From: a bacterium
GTDB taxonomy: Bacteria > JAHJDO01
NCBI GenBank assembly: GCA_030611945.1
Contig: JAUWOV010000056.1
Coordinates: 1-11,995, forward strand
Direction of reading: 5' to 3'
DNA length: 11,995 nucleotides
Below, in pieces: positions 462-9,719 of the stretch. The position numbers and the translations under genes are program-made. Numbering within the stretch: the stretch's first letter is position 1; each line of letters opens with the position of its first letter. Under the pieces are notes generated by a model, which searched no databases, was not told the DNA's origin, and saw nothing but the letters and a program-made list of their open reading frames with translations.

Positions 462-695
462 GTGGTAAAACCTAAAGTTGAAAATGAGAGTAAGGAAGCA
501 AGATTCAAAAGAGTTGCATCTCTTCGCACACAAAAAACTTTAGATGGTTTAAGGCTATTAGGTAATTGCTCAAACAAATCAGCTTATTCCTATTCTCAAG
601 AGGATACTTCGAAAATTTTTAGTACAATAGATAAAGAACTTAGGCGCGTAAAGGGTTTATTTAATAAGTCTAAAAACAATATGTTTAGTTTGTAA
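462..695 (+). CDS. Small helical protein of the GHKL operon (77 aa)
   Basis: I prefer the GTG at 462, because AAGGAG at 450-455 lies 6 nt ahead of it. The in-frame ATG at 438 has no Shine-Dalgarno sequence and would place that purine run inside the coding region. The product is basic and predicted mostly helical. The middle carries the pattern R-x-x-K-T-L-D-G-L-R-L-L-G-N-C-S-N-K-S-x-Y-x-Y. It is followed by an acidic/aromatic helix with E-D-x-x-K-I-F and D-K-E-L-R. I recall similar short proteins, with an RLLGN(L/C)(S/A)N(K/R) core and an ED-x-x-KIF helix, as hypothetical ORFs in mobile or defence islands, but know no established function. No helix-turn-helix is obvious. Being first in the operon it could be a regulator or an adaptor of the ATPase; both are inference. 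Confidence 0.75.
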   Translation: MVKPKVENESKEARFKRVASLRTQKTLDGLRLLGNCSNKSAYSYSQEDTSKIFSTIDKELRRVKGLFNKSKNNMFSL

Positions 696-709
696 GGAGG
701 TTATTGATT

Positions 710-2752
710 ATGGTGACTGAGACAAGAGTATTTAGGCAAGTCAGAAACGACGAAAAAGATATTGAAGCTATTTGCGATAGTTATGAGTCAAAAATTGGTC
801 ATGAAAGATGGATAGCAGAAGCAATACAGAAGGATGCAATCCAGAATAGTTGGGATGCGAGAGAACATAAAAAAACTGGAAAGGGCTGGGAATGCGGTTT
901 TGAGATTAAATCTATAGTGAATAGAAAGTATCTTTGTATATTGGATAAGGGAACTCATGGGCTAAGTGGAACTACGTTCTCTGACGAAAAGGAGTTATCA
1001 GCCATTTTAACTAGTGGGAAACGCAAAGAAGACCTTGCATATTTTTTGAGTTCCAATTGGAGTGGTAAATCAAGTGAAGAAGGCGGTAGTCGAGGTCGTG
1101 GCAAAACGCTGTTTTTAGCTGCTTCTCGTGATGGAAGAATATATTTTGATTCTTTAAGATTATCAGATAATCTATATCTGTTTGGAGAATATTACTTAGA
1201 TAAAGATAAACAAATTAAGTTTAAGCTATGCTATCAAGATGCTGCAAAGGAAGAGCTTGCGAGGATTACGGATGGGAAGATGTTTCCACTTAGAGATGCT
1301 GGTACTAGGATTTTGATTCTAAATCCAAAACCTGCGGTAGAAGAAGCGATTAAAGATGGCAGCATGTTGGCTATGATAAATAATTCAAGGTGGGAAATAA
1401 TTAAAAAATATCAAGCAAAAATTTATGTAAATAATGGGTTTGAAATGAAATATGCGACTTTGCCTTCTTGGTATCTAGATAATTTCGACGAGGCCGTATG
1501 TCACGAATATAAACCTCGCGATAAAGATAAATATGGCGGCGGACTTATAAAAAAAGGTAAATCATATAGAATTAAGAAGCTTGTTTTACGATATAAACTT
1601 AATAATAATTTACCAGAATCTATAAGAGGTCTAGCAATTCAAAGAGGAGGTATGACAATACAGCGTTTGTTACCAGATGGGTGGATTCATGAAGAAGGTA
1701 TGAATAATATTTATGGTTGGGTTGAAATGGATCGCGAACTAGAAAACGAAATGAATGAACTTTGTGAGGGGCCAGAGCATCTCGATTTCAGTTGGCATAA
1801 AAGACCTGCTAAATATTTATCTGATTATCTTAAAAGTAAAATAAGAGATTTCGCGAAGGAATTAAAATTAATTGAGTCTGAAAAGGCGAAGAAAAACAAG
1901 ATACAGAAAGCAGCGGAAGAAAAGGCACTTAAATCCCTTACCTCATTATTTAAAAAATTGAAGCTTTTCGGAAAGAACCTAGGAAAAAGAAAAAGAGGAA
2001 CATCTTCTAGGCAGAAGAATGAACCACTACGCTTGTCAATATCTGATATTAAGTTTCCAAGAGAAAATCGTCGTGTAAATTATGGTGAAAAAATTGAAAA
2101 TGTCTATGTGTATCCGATAAATGAATTTGAGGACAGCATCATGGTTTTGGTTAGATTGTATATTGTTTCTGACAAAGGCAGAACTATTCTTTTTGATGAG
2201 AAGGAGTTTAATCTTCAACCTGGTAAAGGACCGAAAATTGGTTTTGAGACAGTAAAGATTTCTCAAGAACTTGAAAAGGGTGGCTATGTTATTAAAGCTA
2301 AGATGCGTTCTTTAGAAGATTCTACTATAACTTTCCCGGACGGCACAAATATTGAAAAGGGAACAAAGTTGTATGACCGTATACACCAAAAGTTTTACGT
2401 AGAGGTTGCCCCTCCTGAACATGGACCATTACATTTTGAACCAAAAGGCAGAGATGATAAAGGTTATATTATTGATTGGGAGCCAGAGGGGGACAGTGGT
2501 TATATAATCTACTATAACGAGGTACACCCAAGAATTAAAATACTGGTAAATGATGAATCAAAACTAGCAGAATATTTAACAGAACAAGGCGCTCTTGTTG
2601 CTCTACAAATAAAACTTGAAGAAGTAGTAGCAGAGGGCGAAAGTGATGACGAAGATCTTGAAAAATTACTAAAAAGCAAAGAGTTAGGGCAGGTTATTCC
2701 GACAATTTTAAAAAGGTATAGCGAATTTTTATGGGATTATAGAGAGGCTTAA
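710..2752 (+). CDS. GHKL-family ATPase, MORC/MutL/Hsp90-like (680 aa)
   Basis: The start is the ATG at 710, with TAAGGAGG at 693-700 9 nt upstream; an in-frame TTG at 704 is too close to that site. The N-terminal 200 residues carry the Bergerat-fold signatures. The N-box helix EAIQKDAIQNSWDA (37-50) has the Mg-binding Asn46 and the usual D/E residues. Motif II is LDKGTHGLSG (78-87), and the ATP lid GGSRGRGK is at 125-132. The last motif is AGTRI, with Thr199. A transducer-like region follows to about residue 385. Next comes a highly charged Lys-rich linker (about 390-440), then a beta-rich region (about 445-570) that could be an Ig-like sandwich, then a further C-terminal domain with YIIYYNEVHPRIK near 598-610. 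GHKL ATPases of this shape (MutL, MORC, Hsp90) act as ATP-driven clamps; bacterial MORC-like forms are reported near restriction-modification genes. No nuclease motif is apparent. The gap from the previous gene is 14 nt and to the next 1 nt. The ATPase fold is well supported; the role is inferred. Confidence 0.85.
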   Translation: MVTETRVFRQVRNDEKDIEAICDSYESKIGHERWIAEAIQKDAIQNSWDAREHKKTGKGWECGFEIKSIVNRKYLCILDKGTHGLSGTTFSDEKELSAILTSGKRKEDLAYFLSSNWSGKSSEEGGSRGRGKTLFLAASRDGRIYFDSLRLSDNLYLFGEYYLDKDKQIKFKLCYQDAAKEELARITDGKMFPLRDAGTRILILNPKPAVEEAIKDGSMLAMINNSRWEIIKKYQAKIYVNNGFEMKYATLPSWYLDNFDEAVCHEYKPRDKDKYGGGLIKKGKSYRIKKLVLRYKLNNNLPESIRGLAIQRGGMTIQRLLPDGWIHEEGMNNIYGWVEMDRELENEMNELCEGPEHLDFSWHKRPAKYLSDYLKSKIRDFAKELKLIESEKAKKNKIQKAAEEKALKSLTSLFKKLKLFGKNLGKRKRGTSSRQKNEPLRLSISDIKFPRENRRVNYGEKIENVYVYPINEFEDSIMVLVRLYIVSDKGRTILFDEKEFNLQPGKGPKIGFETVKISQELEKGGYVIKAKMRSLEDSTITFPDGTNIEKGTKLYDRIHQKFYVEVAPPEHGPLHFEPKGRDDKGYIIDWEPEGDSGYIIYYNEVHPRIKILVNDESKLAEYLTEQGALVALQIKLEEVVAEGESDDEDLEKLLKSKELGQVIPTILKRYSEFLWDYREA

Positions 2753-2753
2753 A

Positions 2754-3383
2754 ATGGTACTCAAAATTAAGAAGAAAAACCCATCAGGAGAAAGCGTTCA
2801 GTATAAGAGTTCCAAAATTATTTTAACACCCAGAGATATTAAGAAAGCAGACGCGTTTGATGACGATTTAGATGATGAAGTTATTCAGAAATTAGAGAAG
2901 AAGTTGGTTAAATTAAAAATTGTTGATCAAAAGAGCAAAAAAAAGGACCCTTTAAAAGCTTGGTACATAATTGGGAAATATATAAATAAATTTCTACAAC
3001 ATCATTCTGTTGAGAGAGAGGATGAGAATTCCTTTTGGAATGAGTTTTATGGTCGTTCAAAGATAATACATATTGGAATACCATCTAAGAGAATAGGACA
3101 AACAAGAAATGATTTTAGAACAGCATCTTTACTAGCGCGTTTCCCATTTGACAAACTCCGAAAGACAGGATCATGGGCGTTATGGAGAGAAATCATTACT
3201 TATAAATCTTTCATTGAAGACGAGAGAGTTTTAGAATGGGTTGTAAATAGACTTATCGATTCGCCGAGAACAAGAGATAAAGCAAGACCATTTTTAAAAG
3301 CAGTAGCTGCTCGGTTAAAAAGAATAGACACTTCAATTCTCGATGATAAAGAGTTGTTAAGCAAGCTTGAAACGATTAAATAG
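2754..3383 (+). CDS. Uncharacterised protein of the GHKL operon (209 aa)
   Basis: The ATG follows the ATPase stop after one base, with no good Shine-Dalgarno site, so translational coupling is likely and suggests co-expression at fixed ratio. The N-terminal 65 residues are Lys/Asp-rich and probably flexible, with an acidic run (FDDDLDDE, 35-42). The remainder looks helical and more ordered: DPLKAWYIIGKYINKFLQ (65-82), FWNEFYGRS (94-102), RNDFRTASLLARFPF (118-132), GSWALWREIITY (139-150), DERVLEWV (156-163) and a closing basic helix with DTSILDDKEL. The order 'W-x-x-G-x-x-I', then a short basic stretch, then 'W-x-x-W-R-E-I' recalls loosely the N-terminal domain of DUF1016/YhcG-like proteins, but I cannot confirm homology. 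I do not recognise the family. No catalytic triad, metal motif or membrane segment is evident. It may be a DNA-binding or effector partner of the ATPase. Confidence 0.8.
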   Translation: MVLKIKKKNPSGESVQYKSSKIILTPRDIKKADAFDDDLDDEVIQKLEKKLVKLKIVDQKSKKKDPLKAWYIIGKYINKFLQHHSVEREDENSFWNEFYGRSKIIHIGIPSKRIGQTRNDFRTASLLARFPFDKLRKTGSWALWREIITYKSFIEDERVLEWVVNRLIDSPRTRDKARPFLKAVAARLKRIDTSILDDKELLSKLETIK

Positions 3384-3878: not shown

Positions 3879-3945
3879 CAAAAATCAGGAAATAAAGTTC
3901 TCTAACGGGGTTTATTAAATTCCTGAGATGTAGTAGATTGTCGGT

Positions 3946-5334: not shown

Positions 5335-6431
5335 TGTTTTATCATCTTTTTTATTCTCTCAGCAATGTATGGGGCGGGTTTAATGTTTTTAAGTATATTA
5401 CATTTCGCGCAGGAGGCGCGGCGGCAACTGCGCTTCTGTTGAGTATATTTCTTGGACCGTGGGTGATAAGAAAATTGCATGAGTTGAATATTGGACAATA
5501 TATCAGAAAAGGGGAATGTCCTGACCTGTTCACTCTACATCAAAAAAAGCAAGGCACTCCCACTATGGGCGGAGTTTTAATAATTCTGGTTTTATTGATT
5601 TCCACATTATTATGGGCTGATTTCACAAACAGATACATAATACTTGTTTTACTCATAACCCTATGCTTGGGTGGAGTTGGCTTTATTGATGACTACCTGA
5701 AAATACATAAAAAGAATGCCAAGGGACTCAAGATAGGCGCAAAATTGTTAGGACAGCTCATTATTGCCGGGTTTATAGGTTTCTATCTTTATTATAATCC
5801 GGTAAGTTCTAAGTTTGCCACAAAGCTTGGATTCCCGTTTTTTAAAACTTTCTTTATTGATTTAGGCTATTTCTACATTCCATTTGTTATGCTGGTTATT
5901 GTAGGGGCTTCAAATGCTGTTAATTTTACAGACGGACTTGACGGATTGGCCATTGGATGCGCAATGATGGTTTCTATTACGTTCATCATAGTAACATATT
6001 TGTGCGGACATGTTGGATTCAGTAAATACCTGAATATCATAAATGTTGCAGGGAGCGGCGAACTTGCTGTGTTTTGCGCTGCTCTGGTAGGAGCAAGCCT
6101 TGGTTTTCTCTGGTTCAATTGCTATCCTGCAGAGATATTCATGGGTGATACAGGCTCTCTTGCAATAGGCGGAGCGCTCGGTTTTATATCTGTAGTTGTA
6201 AAGCAAGAGATATTGCTGGTCATAGCCGGCGGTATTTTTGTTATAGAGGCTCTATCTGTTATTATTCAGATTATCTCCTTTCGTATGACAGGAAAAAGAG
6301 TATTTTTAATAGCCCCTCTGCATCATCATTTTGAAAAAATGGGCTGGGATGAGACAAAGGTTACAGTCAGGTTCTGGATAGTATCCATAATTTTTGCTCT
6401 TATAAGCCTTGCAACCCTGAAGTTAAGATAA
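5334..6431 (+). CDS. mraY: Phospho-N-acetylmuramoyl-pentapeptide-transferase MraY
   Basis: MraY transfers phospho-MurNAc-pentapeptide from UDP to undecaprenyl phosphate and makes lipid I on the inner face of the membrane. The 365-aa protein is of standard length and has about ten hydrophobic segments. All signature motifs are present: HQKKQGTPTMGG (69-80), the catalytic Asp pair in FIDDYLKI (117-124), NFTDGLDGLA (197-206), PAEIFMGDTGSLAIGG (265-280) with Asp272, and the triple histidine in APLHHHF (327-333). Its start overlaps the murF stop as TAATG, and its stop overlaps a short mutS-like start in exactly the same way (6429-6433). In most bacteria murD follows; here it is replaced by mutS-related sequence and a toxin-antitoxin cassette. 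Confidence 0.97.
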   Translation: MFYHLFYSLSNVWGGFNVFKYITFRAGGAAATALLLSIFLGPWVIRKLHELNIGQYIRKGECPDLFTLHQKKQGTPTMGGVLIILVLLISTLLWADFTNRYIILVLLITLCLGGVGFIDDYLKIHKKNAKGLKIGAKLLGQLIIAGFIGFYLYYNPVSSKFATKLGFPFFKTFFIDLGYFYIPFVMLVIVGASNAVNFTDGLDGLAIGCAMMVSITFIIVTYLCGHVGFSKYLNIINVAGSGELAVFCAALVGASLGFLWFNCYPAEIFMGDTGSLAIGGALGFISVVVKQEILLVIAGGIFVIEALSVIIQIISFRMTGKRVFLIAPLHHHFEKMGWDETKVTVRFWIVSIIFALISLATLKLR

Positions 6432-6455
6432 TGTCAGAACTAACTCCAATGCTAA
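6429..6455 (+). repeat. Duplicated mutS start region, upstream copy
   Basis: These 27 bases match 7084-7110 (true mutS start) at 24 of 27 positions. The match begins exactly at TAATG. Before and after it the flanks do not align. The three differences are at 6434, 6442 and 6454; two are third codon positions. The pair encloses the hairpin repeat and the toxin-antitoxin cassette. Confidence 0.85.
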
Positions 6456-6466
6456 CCGCCAGCTAA
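6431..6466 (+). pseudogene. Orphaned 5' end of mutS (11-codon ORF)
   Basis: The ATG overlaps the mraY stop (TAATG) and reads MSELTPMLTAS before a TAA. The true MutS begins MPELTPMLRQY, so seven of the first eight residues agree. The hairpin repeat starting at 6454 supplies the last codons and the stop. This looks like the ancestral mutS start, displaced by an insertion. It may still be translated as a coupled leader peptide after mraY. It is too short to be a functional MutS fragment. Confidence 0.75.
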
Positions 6467-6506
6467 AGCAGGCGGTTGTGGTGGAACAAGTAGCTGTCGG
6501 GGGAAA
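6454..6506 (+). repeat. Hairpin plus purine-rich dispersed repeat, copy 2
   Basis: Bases 6454-6477 are identical to the hairpin at 3770-3793. Bases 6479-6506 match 3847-3874 at 27 of 28 positions. Here the two parts are separated by one base, against 53 in copy 1, so this is the compact form. It sits exactly at the junction between the broken mutS start and the toxin-antitoxin promoter. Confidence 0.85.
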
Positions 6507-6525
6507 GCCAAAGCCAAAAAAATTA

Positions 6526-6555
6526 TTGACAGCAATAGTTATCATTTGCTATCAT
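6526..6555 (+). promoter_or_regulatory. Promoter of the relBE-like cassette
   Basis: A consensus -35 TTGACA (6526-6531) is followed, after an 18-bp spacer, by the -10 TATCAT (6550-6555, 5 of 6 to consensus). The start of transcription would fall at about 6562, close to the Shine-Dalgarno sequence, so the leader is very short. mutS downstream can also be served by this promoter. Confidence 0.65.
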
Positions 6556-6564
6556 TAGCTATTG
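6533..6564 (+). promoter_or_regulatory. Probable antitoxin operator over the -10 box
   Basis: An inverted pair CAATAG (6533-6538) and CTATTG (6559-6564) brackets two tandem 10-bp steps ending in TATCAT (6540-6545, 6550-6555). Ribbon-helix-helix antitoxins typically bind short tandem or inverted repeats over their own promoter. That the antitoxin encoded next binds here is inference. Confidence 0.45.
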
Positions 6565-6576
6565 GAGGTGAAAACC

Positions 6577-6816
6577 ATGGAAAAAGTATTATTGGGGGCG
6601 CGATTGCCTGTGAATCTAATTACAGAATTAAGAAGCTTTTGTAAACCACGCGGGATATTAATAAATCACTTTGTTGCCAAAGCAGTTATAGAAAGACTCA
6701 AAGAGGAAAAAGAAGACGAGGAAGATACTCTTACCATAGAAGCTAGAAAAAATGAATTATCTATGAGCGAGGCTGAATGGAATGGATATCTAAAAGGCAG
6801 AGGGATAAGTGTTTAA
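6577..6816 (+). CDS. Ribbon-helix-helix-type antitoxin (79 aa)
   Basis: The ATG at 6577 has GGAGGTG at 6564-6570, 6 nt upstream, and is preferred over an in-frame TTG at 6562 that lies within that site. The N-terminal half (KVLLGARLPVNLITELRSFC, then a GILINHFVAKAVIERLK helix) fits a ribbon-helix-helix DNA-binding fold: one short beta strand and two helices. The C-terminal half is acidic (KEEKEDEEDTL) and probably disordered until it wraps the toxin, as in RelB-like antitoxins. The stop overlaps the toxin start by 8 nt, the usual coupled antitoxin-first arrangement. Its expected role is to neutralise the RelE-like toxin and repress the shared promoter. The family subtype is not certain. Confidence 0.8.
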   Translation: MEKVLLGARLPVNLITELRSFCKPRGILINHFVAKAVIERLKEEKEDEEDTLTIEARKNELSMSEAEWNGYLKGRGISV

Positions 6817-7069
6817 ACTTGAGGTAAAATCTAGTGTTAAGAAAGATACTAAAAATTTCCCCAAAGAAGATCTACAACGAATTGCAAATGACATCAGATC
6901 GCTCAAGTTTGATCCATTGCCGTCAGGGGCAAAAAAAATAAAAAAAGGCAAAGAAATATATTATAGAATAAGGCAAGGCAATTTTAGAATTGGCTATCGA
7001 TTTAATGCAACCAAAAGATTAATAGAAATTATTTATATTAAACGTAGAAAAGAATCTACTTATAAATGA
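6809..7069 (+). CDS. RelE/ParE-superfamily toxin (86 aa)
   Basis: The start is GTG at 6809, inside the end of the antitoxin gene, with a purine-rich AGAGGG a few bases ahead. The 86-aa basic protein is of normal RelE/ParE length. It shows a helical N-terminal half (KKDTKNFPKEDLQRIANDI), then KKIKKGKEIYYRIRQGNFRIGYRF, here given in parts: KKIKKG (42-47), YYRIRQGNFRIGYRF (51-65), and the final strand IIYIKRRKEST. In RelE relatives these Arg/Lys-rich strands bind mRNA in the ribosomal A site, where the toxin cleaves it. ParE relatives share the fold but poison gyrase, and the sequence does not decide between them. It is about half identical to the truncated toxin at the left edge. mutS follows after 16 nt. 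Confidence 0.85.
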   Translation: MFKLEVKSSVKKDTKNFPKEDLQRIANDIRSLKFDPLPSGAKKIKKGKEIYYRIRQGNFRIGYRFNATKRLIEIIYIKRRKESTYK

Positions 7070-7083
7070 GGGCGCCACGATTC

Positions 7084-7110
7084 TAATGCCAGAACTTACT
7101 CCAATGCTCA
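7084..7110 (+). repeat. Duplicated mutS start region, downstream (functional) copy
   Basis: Partner of 6429-6455, 24 of 27 bases identical, beginning with the same TAATG although no gene ends here. That remnant TA before the ATG is what one expects if the segment was copied from the original mraY-mutS junction. Confidence 0.85.
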
Positions 7111-9719
7111 GGCAGTATCTAGGCATAAAAAAGAACAATAAAAATACTGTCCTTTTCTTCAGGTTAGGGGATTTTTATGAGATGTTCTTTGATGACGCAA
7201 AGCTTGCATCAAAAATTCTTGAAATTACTCTGACTTCCCGCGATGGGGGAGAAGGAAGAAAAATCCCAATGTGCGGCATTCCATATCATGCTGCGGAAAA
7301 CTATATAGCAAAATTAATAAAAAGCGGGCACAAAGTTGCAATCTGTGAACAGGTTGAAGACGCAAAAAAGGCAAAAGGACTTGTTAAAAGGGAAATTGTA
7401 AGAACAATAACTCCAGGCACGGTTCTTTCCAGCTCTATGCTTGATGTAAAGAGCAATAATTATCTCGGGGCGATAGTCTTATCAGACAAAAAGTTTGCGC
7501 TTGCGGTCTCGGATTTATCAACAGGCGAGTTTAAAGCAGCAGAGTTTTCTGATTATATAAAATTCTTAGATGAAGTCCGCCGTGTCAATCCAAAAGAAAT
7601 TATTCTTCAAAATTCCTTAATGGAAAATGAAAAGATTAAAAAAGATATTAGTATATCCTGCTCGGTTTTAACGTCGTATGATGACTGGCATTTTGATAGA
7701 GAAAGCGCAAACAGTGTACTTACTTCTCATTTTAAAACGCAGTCAATGGACGGCTTTGGATGCAGTGACTTTCCCGCTGCAATATGCTGTGGAGGTGCGC
7801 TTCTTGAATACATTAAGGACATACAGCAGATTTCGCCGACACATATAAACGATTTCAAGATATATTCAACGTCAGACTTTATGGTACTGGACAACGCTAC
7901 TCAAAAGAATCTTGAACTTGTTGAAACCATACATGCTCATGAGAAAAAAGGAACATTATTGGATACGTTGGATGCAACTATTACTCCAATGGGAGGCCGT
8001 CTCCTGCGGACCTGGGTTGTACAACCTCTGAGAGACTCAGAAGAGATTAACAGCAGACTTGATGCTGTTAATGAGTTTATAAATTCTGCAGATGTTAATG
8101 ATAAGGTAAGAGCTATCTTCAGAAATATCCTTGATATAGAGAGAATAATCAGCCGTATTAATTGCGGTCTGGCTAATGGGCGTGATCTGATAGGTCTCAG
8201 AGAGTCATTGAAAAAGGTTCCTCAAGTAAAGGGAATAATTAACAAATTCAAGGTACAGATGTTGAAAAATATATGTGAGGACTTGCAGGATGTCTCAGAA
8301 CTGGTTAGTTTACTCGACAAGGCTATTGTTGATGAACCTCCGATCAGCATTCGGGACGGCAATATTATCAAACATGGATTTGATGCTGGTCTTGATGAAA
8401 TAAGACAGATCAGTAAGGGAGGAAAGGACTGGATCAAGTCCCTTCAGGTAGAAGAGATTCGGAGGACAGGAATAAAATCTCTAAAGGTAAGATATAATAA
8501 GGTTTTTGGATACTATATTGAAATTACAAAAACGAACTTAAATATGGTGCCTGATAATTATATCAGAAAACAGACTCTCTTGGGTTGTGAGAGATTTATA
8601 ACTCCGGAGCTGAAGGAGAAAGAAGCGCTTGTTCTTGGCGCAGAAGAGAGAATTAATGAAGCGGAATATAAGATTTTTACTGATGTGCGCAGTCAGGCTG
8701 CATGTGAAACTGTCAGACTTCAAAAAATAGCGCGCGCTATTGGCATGCTGGATGCAGTAAGTTCGTTAGCGCTAATAGCTATTCAAAATAATTATGTAAG
8801 ACCTGAGATTACAGATTCTGATGTTATAGAGATTATTGATGGCAGACATCCTGTTCTTGAGAGGTTGGATATCGGAAGTCAATTTGTTCCGAATGATACA
8901 TATATTGATAATTCCAGCCAGCAGATACTGATAATCACCGGACCGAATATGGCAGGCAAGTCAACTTATATTAGACAGGTTGCTCTCATTGTTCTCATGG
9001 GGCAGATCGGCAGCTTTGTACCTGCAAAAAGCGCAAAGATTGGTACGGTTGATAGAATATTTACCAGAGTCGGCGCATCTGATGAACTGACAAAAGGGCA
9101 GAGTACATTCATGATAGAGATGAATGAGGTAGCGAATATACTCAACAATGCCACTCCGCGCAGTTTAATAATACTTGACGAAGTAGGAAGAGGCACAAGC
9201 ACATTTGATGGTGTCAGCATTGCATGGGCGGTAGCGGAATATATACATAACAACCCAAAAGTCAATGCAAAGACTCTTTTTGCTACTCACTATCATGAAT
9301 TGACTGAACTTACTCTCACATTGGAGAGAGCAAAGAATTATAATGTTTTGGTTAAAGAATGGAATAATGAAGTCATTTTTCTTCATAAGATTGTTGGAGG
9401 CCCAACAGATAAAAGCTATGGCATTCATGTTGCGTCTCTTGCAGGACTGCCAAAAGAACTAATAGAAAGGGCGAAGGATATCCTTGTTAATTTAGAGAAC
9501 GAAACAATCTCTGAACAGGGTCTTCCTAAGTTTGCGCCTTCTATAAAGAAGAATAAAAATAGGGAAATAAAAGAGTCGTCTCAGCTTACATTTTTTGCCC
9601 CGATAGATCATTCTGTTGTAGATGAAATAAAAAATTTGGATACAGAAAACATGACCCCGCTTCAAGCTCTTAAGAAACTTGATGAACTGAGAAAGAAAGT
9701 TAAAAAAGATAAATTTTGA
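7086..9719 (+). CDS. mutS: DNA mismatch repair protein MutS
   Basis: MutS recognises base mismatches and small loops in newly replicated DNA and recruits MutL. The 877-aa length is typical of MutS1. The N-terminal mismatch-reading motif is present as GDFYEMFF (28-35; Phe30-x-Glu32). Connector, lever and clamp domains follow, and the C-terminal ABC-type ATPase has Walker A GPNMAGKST (619-627), signature region GQSTFMIEM, Walker B IILDEVGRGTSTFDG with Asp698-Glu699, and the H-loop ATHYHEL near 733-739. The tail MTPLQALKKLDELRKK matches the conserved C-terminus. The ATG at 7086 has only a weak GAGGG 13 nt upstream. The gene lies 16 nt after the toxin and is in frame and intact. mutL is not in the window. 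Expression is probably from the murF-mraY transcript and/or the TA promoter. Confidence 0.97.
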   Translation: MPELTPMLRQYLGIKKNNKNTVLFFRLGDFYEMFFDDAKLASKILEITLTSRDGGEGRKIPMCGIPYHAAENYIAKLIKSGHKVAICEQVEDAKKAKGLVKREIVRTITPGTVLSSSMLDVKSNNYLGAIVLSDKKFALAVSDLSTGEFKAAEFSDYIKFLDEVRRVNPKEIILQNSLMENEKIKKDISISCSVLTSYDDWHFDRESANSVLTSHFKTQSMDGFGCSDFPAAICCGGALLEYIKDIQQISPTHINDFKIYSTSDFMVLDNATQKNLELVETIHAHEKKGTLLDTLDATITPMGGRLLRTWVVQPLRDSEEINSRLDAVNEFINSADVNDKVRAIFRNILDIERIISRINCGLANGRDLIGLRESLKKVPQVKGIINKFKVQMLKNICEDLQDVSELVSLLDKAIVDEPPISIRDGNIIKHGFDAGLDEIRQISKGGKDWIKSLQVEEIRRTGIKSLKVRYNKVFGYYIEITKTNLNMVPDNYIRKQTLLGCERFITPELKEKEALVLGAEERINEAEYKIFTDVRSQAACETVRLQKIARAIGMLDAVSSLALIAIQNNYVRPEITDSDVIEIIDGRHPVLERLDIGSQFVPNDTYIDNSSQQILIITGPNMAGKSTYIRQVALIVLMGQIGSFVPAKSAKIGTVDRIFTRVGASDELTKGQSTFMIEMNEVANILNNATPRSLIILDEVGRGTSTFDGVSIAWAVAEYIHNNPKVNAKTLFATHYHELTELTLTLERAKNYNVLVKEWNNEVIFLHKIVGGPTDKSYGIHVASLAGLPKELIERAKDILVNLENETISEQGLPKFAPSIKKNKNREIKESSQLTFFAPIDHSVVDEIKNLDTENMTPLQALKKLDELRKKVKKDKF

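Follow-up and report, generated by a model that had tools for sequence, protein, structure and literature searches.

Relatives of the MORC ATPases were predicted in 2008 to occur in prokaryotic restriction-modification operons (Iyer, Abhiman and Aravind, 2008; PMC2292703). The placement of MORC-like GHKL ATPases in mobile defence operons derives from this prediction (PMC2292703) and, in part, from experiments, namely those on VcSduA (PMC12137116); most of the so-called PDC candidates still await experimental validation (PMC12988326). Here we analyze a three-gene operon, A-B-C, whose second gene encodes a GHKL ATPase. It lies in a stretch of 11,995 bases (contig JAUWOV010000056.1 of assembly GCA_030611945.1, lineage JAHJDO01), which is one whole contig of a 1.66-Mb draft bacterial genome and is called the window below. 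The trio probably is a previously unrecorded defence system. With about even confidence, we read it as an operon of the MORC/paraMORC type that is mobile and probably directed against invaders, in which B would be a DNA clamp gated by ATP whose partners can be exchanged. The general kind, i.e., GHKL ATPases in defence operons, is known; as far as we found, the new elements are the A-B-C family, gene A as a common leader, and the swap of operon cores, none of which was on record in a literature search (not exhaustive).

The ATPase and its relationships

The three genes form a tight operon, with 14 nt between A and B and a single nucleotide between B and C; in relatives the B-C gaps are also short (−11 to +35 nt). 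This is not a chance arrangement, since B, A, and C recur together across genomes of different phyla. The original prediction, made from the letters of the window alone, had proposed these three open reading frames (ORFs) in a tight operon with C translationally coupled to B, and both points hold.

The ATPase contains the N-box DAIQNSWDA (residues 42–50), the G1 motif D-x-G-T-x-G-L (DKGTHGL, 79–85), and the glycine lid GSRGRG (126–131). These motifs had been described as intact, and indeed N46, D79, G81, G84, G126, G129, G131, and K132 are invariant in the 16 homologs introduced below, as is R312, the candidate basic residue of the S5 domain. In a structural model (pLDDT 78.7) derived from the alignment of the family, residues 11–387 constitute a GHKL plus S5 module that matches MORC3, SMCHD1, and Hsp90 with Z-scores of 18–22. 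The best fold match is MORC3 (5ix2; Z 21.7 over 297 residues, 3.4 Å), the second is SMCHD1 (6mw7; Z 21.6), and Hsp90 and the type II and VI topoisomerases come after these two. Residues ~440–600 are modelled as a β-sandwich with immunoglobulin/fibronectin-like matches, in agreement with the large β-rich C-terminal region claimed initially, and low-confidence helices follow; no nuclease was recognised. Searches of Pfam, NCBIfam, and PADLOC left A, B, and C all without a credible match, and the weak matches of B to XPA_N, Cas11b (its sole PADLOC match, E 0.0035), and YjgA (in PDB) were taken as chance.

Judged by its motifs, B appears to be paraMORC2-like rather than a MORC in the strict sense or a MutL. 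The MutL endonuclease motif DQHAx2Ex4E is present in none of the 16 B proteins; many true MutLs likewise lack it. The motif GhXhhpXXRhl, which defines MORC, is missing from all 16 as well, while ExxxH, which was published as the mark of paraMORC2 (Iyer, Abhiman and Aravind, 2008; PMC2292703) and lies within the C-terminal portion of S5, stands at the equivalent place (E353...H357) in 16/16 B proteins and in 5/5 PDC-M33A proteins, the assignment being based on this published signature. As for Shedu/paraMORC3, B has no PD-(D/E)xK (DUF4263) match in Pfam, and its C-terminus models as a β-sandwich. The earlier label "MORC/MutL-like" hence survives for the GHKL-S5 module, with MORC3 as its best fold match, but not for the strict MORC or MutL motifs, in whose place the paraMORC2 signature is found.

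Profile comparison aligns B with PDC-M33A in register along 325 columns (97.7%, E 1.8e-12). The PADLOC model of M33A does not recognise B, no match to DUF6339 (M33C) was found in the window trio, and the C-terminal part of B is not a fused M33B. The comparison with named systems, proposed along with the original prediction, leaves the trio outside all of them, B being distant kin of an untested candidate, PDC-M33A. No paper naming PDC-M33 or DUF6339 was found in the literature search.

Distribution, shared leader, and genomic setting

We scanned 84,980 species genomes under motif guidance, using a masked artificial row to steer the patterns and tblastn against B to confirm matches. This yielded 16 relatives of B in Patescibacteria, Chloroflexota, KSB1, Ignavibacteriales, Thorarchaeota, Lokiarchaeota, and Bathyarchaeota; six of those from Chloroflexota belong to Dehalococcoidia. 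The nearest by identity come from Taylorbacteria (57%), another Patescibacteria genome (48%), and Berkelbacteria (43%). The flanks, which played no part in finding the relatives, were then searched for A and C. Homologs of A are situated directly upstream of B in 8/16 loci (L008, L009, L010, L012, L017, L018, L019, and L021; E 1e-12 to 5e-23). Homologs of C were found directly downstream in seven loci by direct search, and in the six Dehalococcoidia a gene of 190–200 aa in the C position is profile-related to C (81.5%, P 1e-5), bringing the total to 13/16. The three loci with no detectable C are L014, which has a truncated B, L016, in which an IS3-like ORF comes next, and L023. The co-occurrence expected by the original prediction is thus seen among relatives found through B alone.

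The distribution of B looks like a pattern of horizontal transfer. It is patchy, because the nearest relatives are Patescibacteria, yet all four genus-mates lack B. In the B tree, which is small and has several weakly supported forks, archaeal sequences occur in two places and bacterial phyla are intermixed. A search of 385 other genomes for B gave one match, and none was found in phage, plasmid, or viral-contig searches; the DNA-pattern match L006, in a phage tail region, is due to chance. Several trio loci are flanked by toxin-antitoxin, PIN, recombinase, transposase, or C5-methylase genes. By inspection of neighbours by eye, partly aided by scans, L011 is the only trio locus with a methylase close by, a C5 methylase at ~0.6 kb.

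The trio occupies a variable slot between murE and murF, since one genus-mate has nothing at this junction and two have other inserts there. In the genome G004, 20 bases separate the end of murE from murF, and homology to the window starts at 3911, just left of murF; the junction contains a 1.3-kb insert in G003 and a 4.4-kb insert in G002. In the window's own genome murE is located on another contig and is followed by an AbiEii-type gene. The suggested accessory-island location is confirmed by these comparisons. The G002 insert (L101, 3573–5735) encodes a 720-aa PLD-like protein with ankyrin repeats, which is accessory and perhaps defensive.

A second cassette, L076, elsewhere in G002, shares its ends with the window. 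Its left end, comprising the leader, the promoter, and the start of A, is 79% identical over 200 bases, and its right end is 84% identical over the tail-like ORF and 92% over the hairpin repeat, while its core consists of A, a 208-aa protein, and an unlike GHKL protein of 758 aa. With shared ends and unlike GHKL cores, the two cassettes suggest either that cores were exchanged by recombination in the flanking homology or that the unit moves together with its ends.

Gene A reaches well beyond the B family. The A protein has an isoelectric point (pI) of about 10 in 9/9 cases. Plasmid homologs of A precede GHKL-motif proteins of 615–800 aa in Ensifer, Dinoroseobacter, Agrobacterium, Arthrobacter, Priestia, Planococcus, and Rhizobium; one Neorhizobium plasmid copy has no GHKL gene following. 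An A profile gave ten strong matches, including the window, in the 385 genomes; besides the window, a GHKL gene lies directly after A or one further in 4/7 assessable loci, two others ending at a contig edge. For all loci found through A alone, the corresponding figure is 11/15, a raw count with no background rate. Five A-linked loci are PDC-M33 operons, three (L028–L030) by PADLOC matches and two (L077, L078) by layout and by B-profile/DUF6339-like resemblance, and these five are flanked by dcm, vsr, AlwI-type, MutH/Sau3AI-type, or Shedu genes. L024 is located beside a DNA methylase and an AAA ATPase, and L026 and L027 beside an OLD-like ATPase with a UvrD-like helicase, L027 also having a caspase-family gene. 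This closeness to defence genes was read from the loci themselves, with no background rate behind it.

Gene A hence appears to be a shared leader of operons whose remainder is modular, because the partner genes differ: C is unrelated by profile to M33B and M33C (probability 0.1–0.5%) and has no profile match to the winged helix-turn-helix-like gene of L075/L076/L024. The GHKL proteins of L024/L075/L076 and of L026/L027 have no profile match to B beyond the shared superfamily motifs and so are only distant kin of B, though they share gene A. A further observation concerns L084 (reverse-complement coordinates), where a 19-residue remnant of gene A (5707–5763) is found directly upstream of an 841-aa protein (5855–8380) with an N-box-like motif, adjoining a gene that resembles a DNA methylase; this may be one more type of A-linked GHKL operon, its leader having decayed.

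The C protein of the window is basic (pI 9.8), and two Thorarchaeota copies are acidic, so direct binding of DNA is not a trait shared by the C family. Its model (pLDDT 86.5) is all-helical. Overlaps with a ParB/Noc-like helix-turn-helix (Z 4.7) fall below a meaningful level, and weak matches to PHZA_PHZB and GapS6a were taken as chance. A resemblance to DUF1016_N noticed by eye was rejected (hhalign 1.4–1.7%, out of register), with hmmsearch also against it.

Proposed function and alternatives

In GHKL-S5 proteins such as MutL, Hsp90, topoisomerases, and MORC, ATP closes an N-terminal dimer gate. The analysis establishes the gene content and its conservation, the fold class and motif state of B, the location in an island, and the interchangeable cores. 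We infer a comparable cycle, including dimerisation and DNA binding, for B, together with the defence function and the roles of A and C. B would be an ATP-gated dimeric clamp on DNA or on a DNA-protein complex: ATP binding would close the GHKL heads, the S5 domain would relay the closure, and the β-sandwich C-terminal region may hold a partner or target. The small, basic, helical protein A, made first, probably binds nucleic acid and could guide B to invading DNA or repress the operon. C, whose translation is coupled to that of B, would turn the closed clamp state into an outcome, most likely the arrest of invader replication or transcription. Arrest is favoured over cleavage, because no nuclease or methylase is recognised in the trio, as the original prediction had noted; the window as a whole has no methylase either.

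The reading of the trio as an anti-invader clamp operon draws on several lines of evidence. These are the predicted fold and the motifs of B, with MORC3 and SMCHD1 on top and with R312 and ExxxH invariant; the conservation of the operon across bacteria and archaea in a patchy distribution; the toxin-antitoxin, PIN, recombinase, transposase, or C5-methylase genes flanking several trio loci; the murE-murF accessory slot, with an AbiEii-type gene beyond murE and a same-ends cassette carrying another GHKL core; and the gene A-sharing kin beside dcm, vsr, type II enzymes, and Shedu, PDC-M33 among them. The original prediction had considered defence possible, with the 209-aa protein or the ATPase as the effector. 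Co-occurrence, the lack of a named system, and the accessory slot have moved in its favour, and defence itself stays at the level of a probable role.

Other observations count against this reading. Gene A was not detected in seven B loci, an eighth A-less locus (L022) being cut; since A is undetectable in these seven, the operon is best described, from homology, as A-B-C with a dispensable or fast-changing A. The general base of the N-box, usually the catalytic glutamate in GHKL proteins, is Asp (D42) in 16/16 B proteins and Glu in the five PDC-M33A relatives, so hydrolysis by B may be slow, and the use of ATP slow or switch-like. Structure searches with C gave no recognisable fold match. In two Dehalococcoidales (L018, L019) the trio stands at the same place beside topA and looks vertically inherited. 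A also occurs without a nearby GHKL gene, in two bacterial loci (L079, L081) and as a weak match in cyanophage S-CRES1 (L031). Finally, the literature search found no experimental study of the trio family or of PDC-M33. Orphan copies of A would be compatible with a wider regulatory or DNA-binding role of this gene.

A broader proposal, which we put forward as possible but tentative, is that of a modular invader-control superfamily, in which the leader A goes with many different GHKL clamps and with a third partner that can be exchanged, whole cores being traded between cassette ends that stay the same. The trio would then be its Patescibacteria/Chloroflexota/Asgard branch, providing nuclease-free, MORC-like immunity by DNA silencing.

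The main rival concerns the activation of C, which could poison the cell rather than arrest the invader. Under abortive infection, B as a sensor would hold C inactive, infection would free or activate C and so poison the cell, and A would be a repressor or a second brake. We regard this as doubtful, though a serious contender. Effectors usually are the variable part of such systems, and here C is the most variable part, extra genes also differing among unlike GHKL operons; the translational coupling of B and C fits as well, as do recent GHKL systems of this logic, VapK-VapS-VapC (PMC13373217). VapK, however, belongs to the STAS-GHKL kinases and lacks the S5 module that B has, and C has no toxin motif, Pfam match, or clear structural match.

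It is unlikely that B is an accessory of restriction-modification, a role suggested earlier for MORCs and paraMORCs, and cooperates with a methylase and a nuclease whose genes lie in other parts of the genome. It would suit the ExxxH of B, as paraMORC2 kin are encoded with Dcm and Vsr, and methylase, Vsr, helicase, and nuclease partners were stressed for them (PMC2292703); the methylase at L011 and the PDC-M33 kin with dcm, vsr, AlwI, and MutH/Sau3AI point the same way. Nonetheless, among the trio loci inspected only L011 has a methylase nearby, and the window has none. A host operon for gene regulation or for chromosome or plasmid upkeep that merely travels horizontally is very improbable: the kept topA-adjacent location and the orphan A among housekeeping genes (L079, L081) would agree with it, but the patchy distribution, the cassette swap, the hotspot location, and plasmid kin among defence genes do not.

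Because no methylase or nuclease is recognised in it, the trio could show whether invading DNA can be controlled by a GHKL clamp alone, in the way that eukaryotic MORCs are thought to act on transposons. The copies in Thor- and Lokiarchaeota bear on the origin of eukaryotic MORCs, though the B proteins lack the MORC motif. The A-B-C family escapes the Pfam, NCBIfam, and PADLOC models searched, and the shared leader A makes it easy to look for other GHKL operons not yet on record.

Window features and comparison with known systems

The features of the trio and its borders are collected in Table 1.

Table 1. Positions of the operon and adjoining features in the window
Feature	Start	End	Strand	Comment
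Likely sigma-70 promoter	392	416	+	TTGACA, 17 nt, TATAAC; counterpart kept in genus-mate locus L076
Gene A	462	695	+	77 aa, basic, helical; GTG start
Gene B	710	2752	+	680-aa GHKL ATPase, paraMORC2-like; GHKL+S5 ~11–387, β-sandwich ~440–600, then helices
Gene C	2754	3383	+	209 aa, basic, mostly helical, new family; presumed partner or effector
Tail-protein-like ORF	3466	3771	+	PHROG tail protein, E 1.9e-4; companion, membership in trio function not established
Hairpin repeat and second repeat, right edge of insert	3769	3874	+	Homology to genus-mate empty site starts at 3911

The promoter claimed for the operon was not called in the window by a strict promoter scanner, whereas in L076 its counterpart TTGACA-N16-TATAAT occupies the same place within the 79%-identical leader. 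The start of gene A seems best placed at GTG 462, the alternative ATG at 438 being less likely: the genus-mate copy has ATG where the window has this GTG, with the same ribosome-binding region upstream.

After the trio, the genes as named from sequence are the tail-protein-like ORF, murF, mraY, a RelB/RelE-like pair, mutS, aroD, and xseA (minus strand). The neighbours mentioned in the original prediction are real, albeit by weak matches for two of them: the partial ORF at the left edge resembles ParE/RelE-type toxins, and the phage-fibre-like ORF resembles tail proteins; the dispersed repeats are real as well. A 74% identical copy of the 101-aa fibre-like ORF lies at the right end of the L076 cassette, and larger ORFs in the genus contain parts of it (G000:C8, C13, C119; G001:C114). 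One repeat, composed of a hairpin, AACCGCC..GGCGGTT, plus TGGTGGAACAARTAGCTGTCGGGGGAAA, borders the A-B-C cassette on the right and, at 6453–6506, the relBE insert on the left; its hairpin part is also found next to the GHKL cassette of G002 (L076, reverse complement, 8233–8282). Possibly this element is specific to the genus and serves to mark or direct insertion. Between mraY and mutS (6429–7108), the relBE-like pair sits in an insert of ~630 bp that has a 25-bp direct repeat on either side, a duplication of the opening codons of mutS; in G002 mraY and mutS adjoin directly. This looks like a small mobile toxin-antitoxin unit with target duplication.

Among known systems, PDC-M33 (GHKL ATPase A, B, and C = DUF6339) shares with the window trio the gene A leader directly upstream and a related ATPase, including the N-box, D-x-G/N-T-x-G-L, the glycine lid, and ExxxH, and shares with the trio's kin the defence neighbourhood; it differs in the Glu at the N-box base, Asp in B, and in its partner genes, M33B and M33C, unrelated to C by profile. 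ParaMORC2 proteins resemble B in GHKL and S5 with ExxxH and in their sporadic spread in bacteria and archaea, but methylase, Vsr, SFII helicase, or nuclease partners were emphasised for them (PMC2292703), whereas the trio has none recognised and adds A and C. VcSduA/paraMORC3, a GHKL-Shedu nuclease fusion (PMC12137116), likewise combines an N-terminal GHKL ATPase with further domains in a phage-defence context, although it has a PD-(D/E)xK nuclease where B has a β-sandwich, and B belongs to a multigene operon. CapK/CapS and VapK/VapS/VapC (PMC13373217) also are small immune operons with a GHKL protein, the latter with three genes as well; these are STAS-GHKL kinases phosphorylating a STAS protein, in contrast to B with its S5 transducer and no STAS domain recognised. 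Eukaryotic MORC3 and SMCHD1 are the top structural matches of the ATPase module, but the MORC motif GhXhhpXXRhl is missing from the B proteins.

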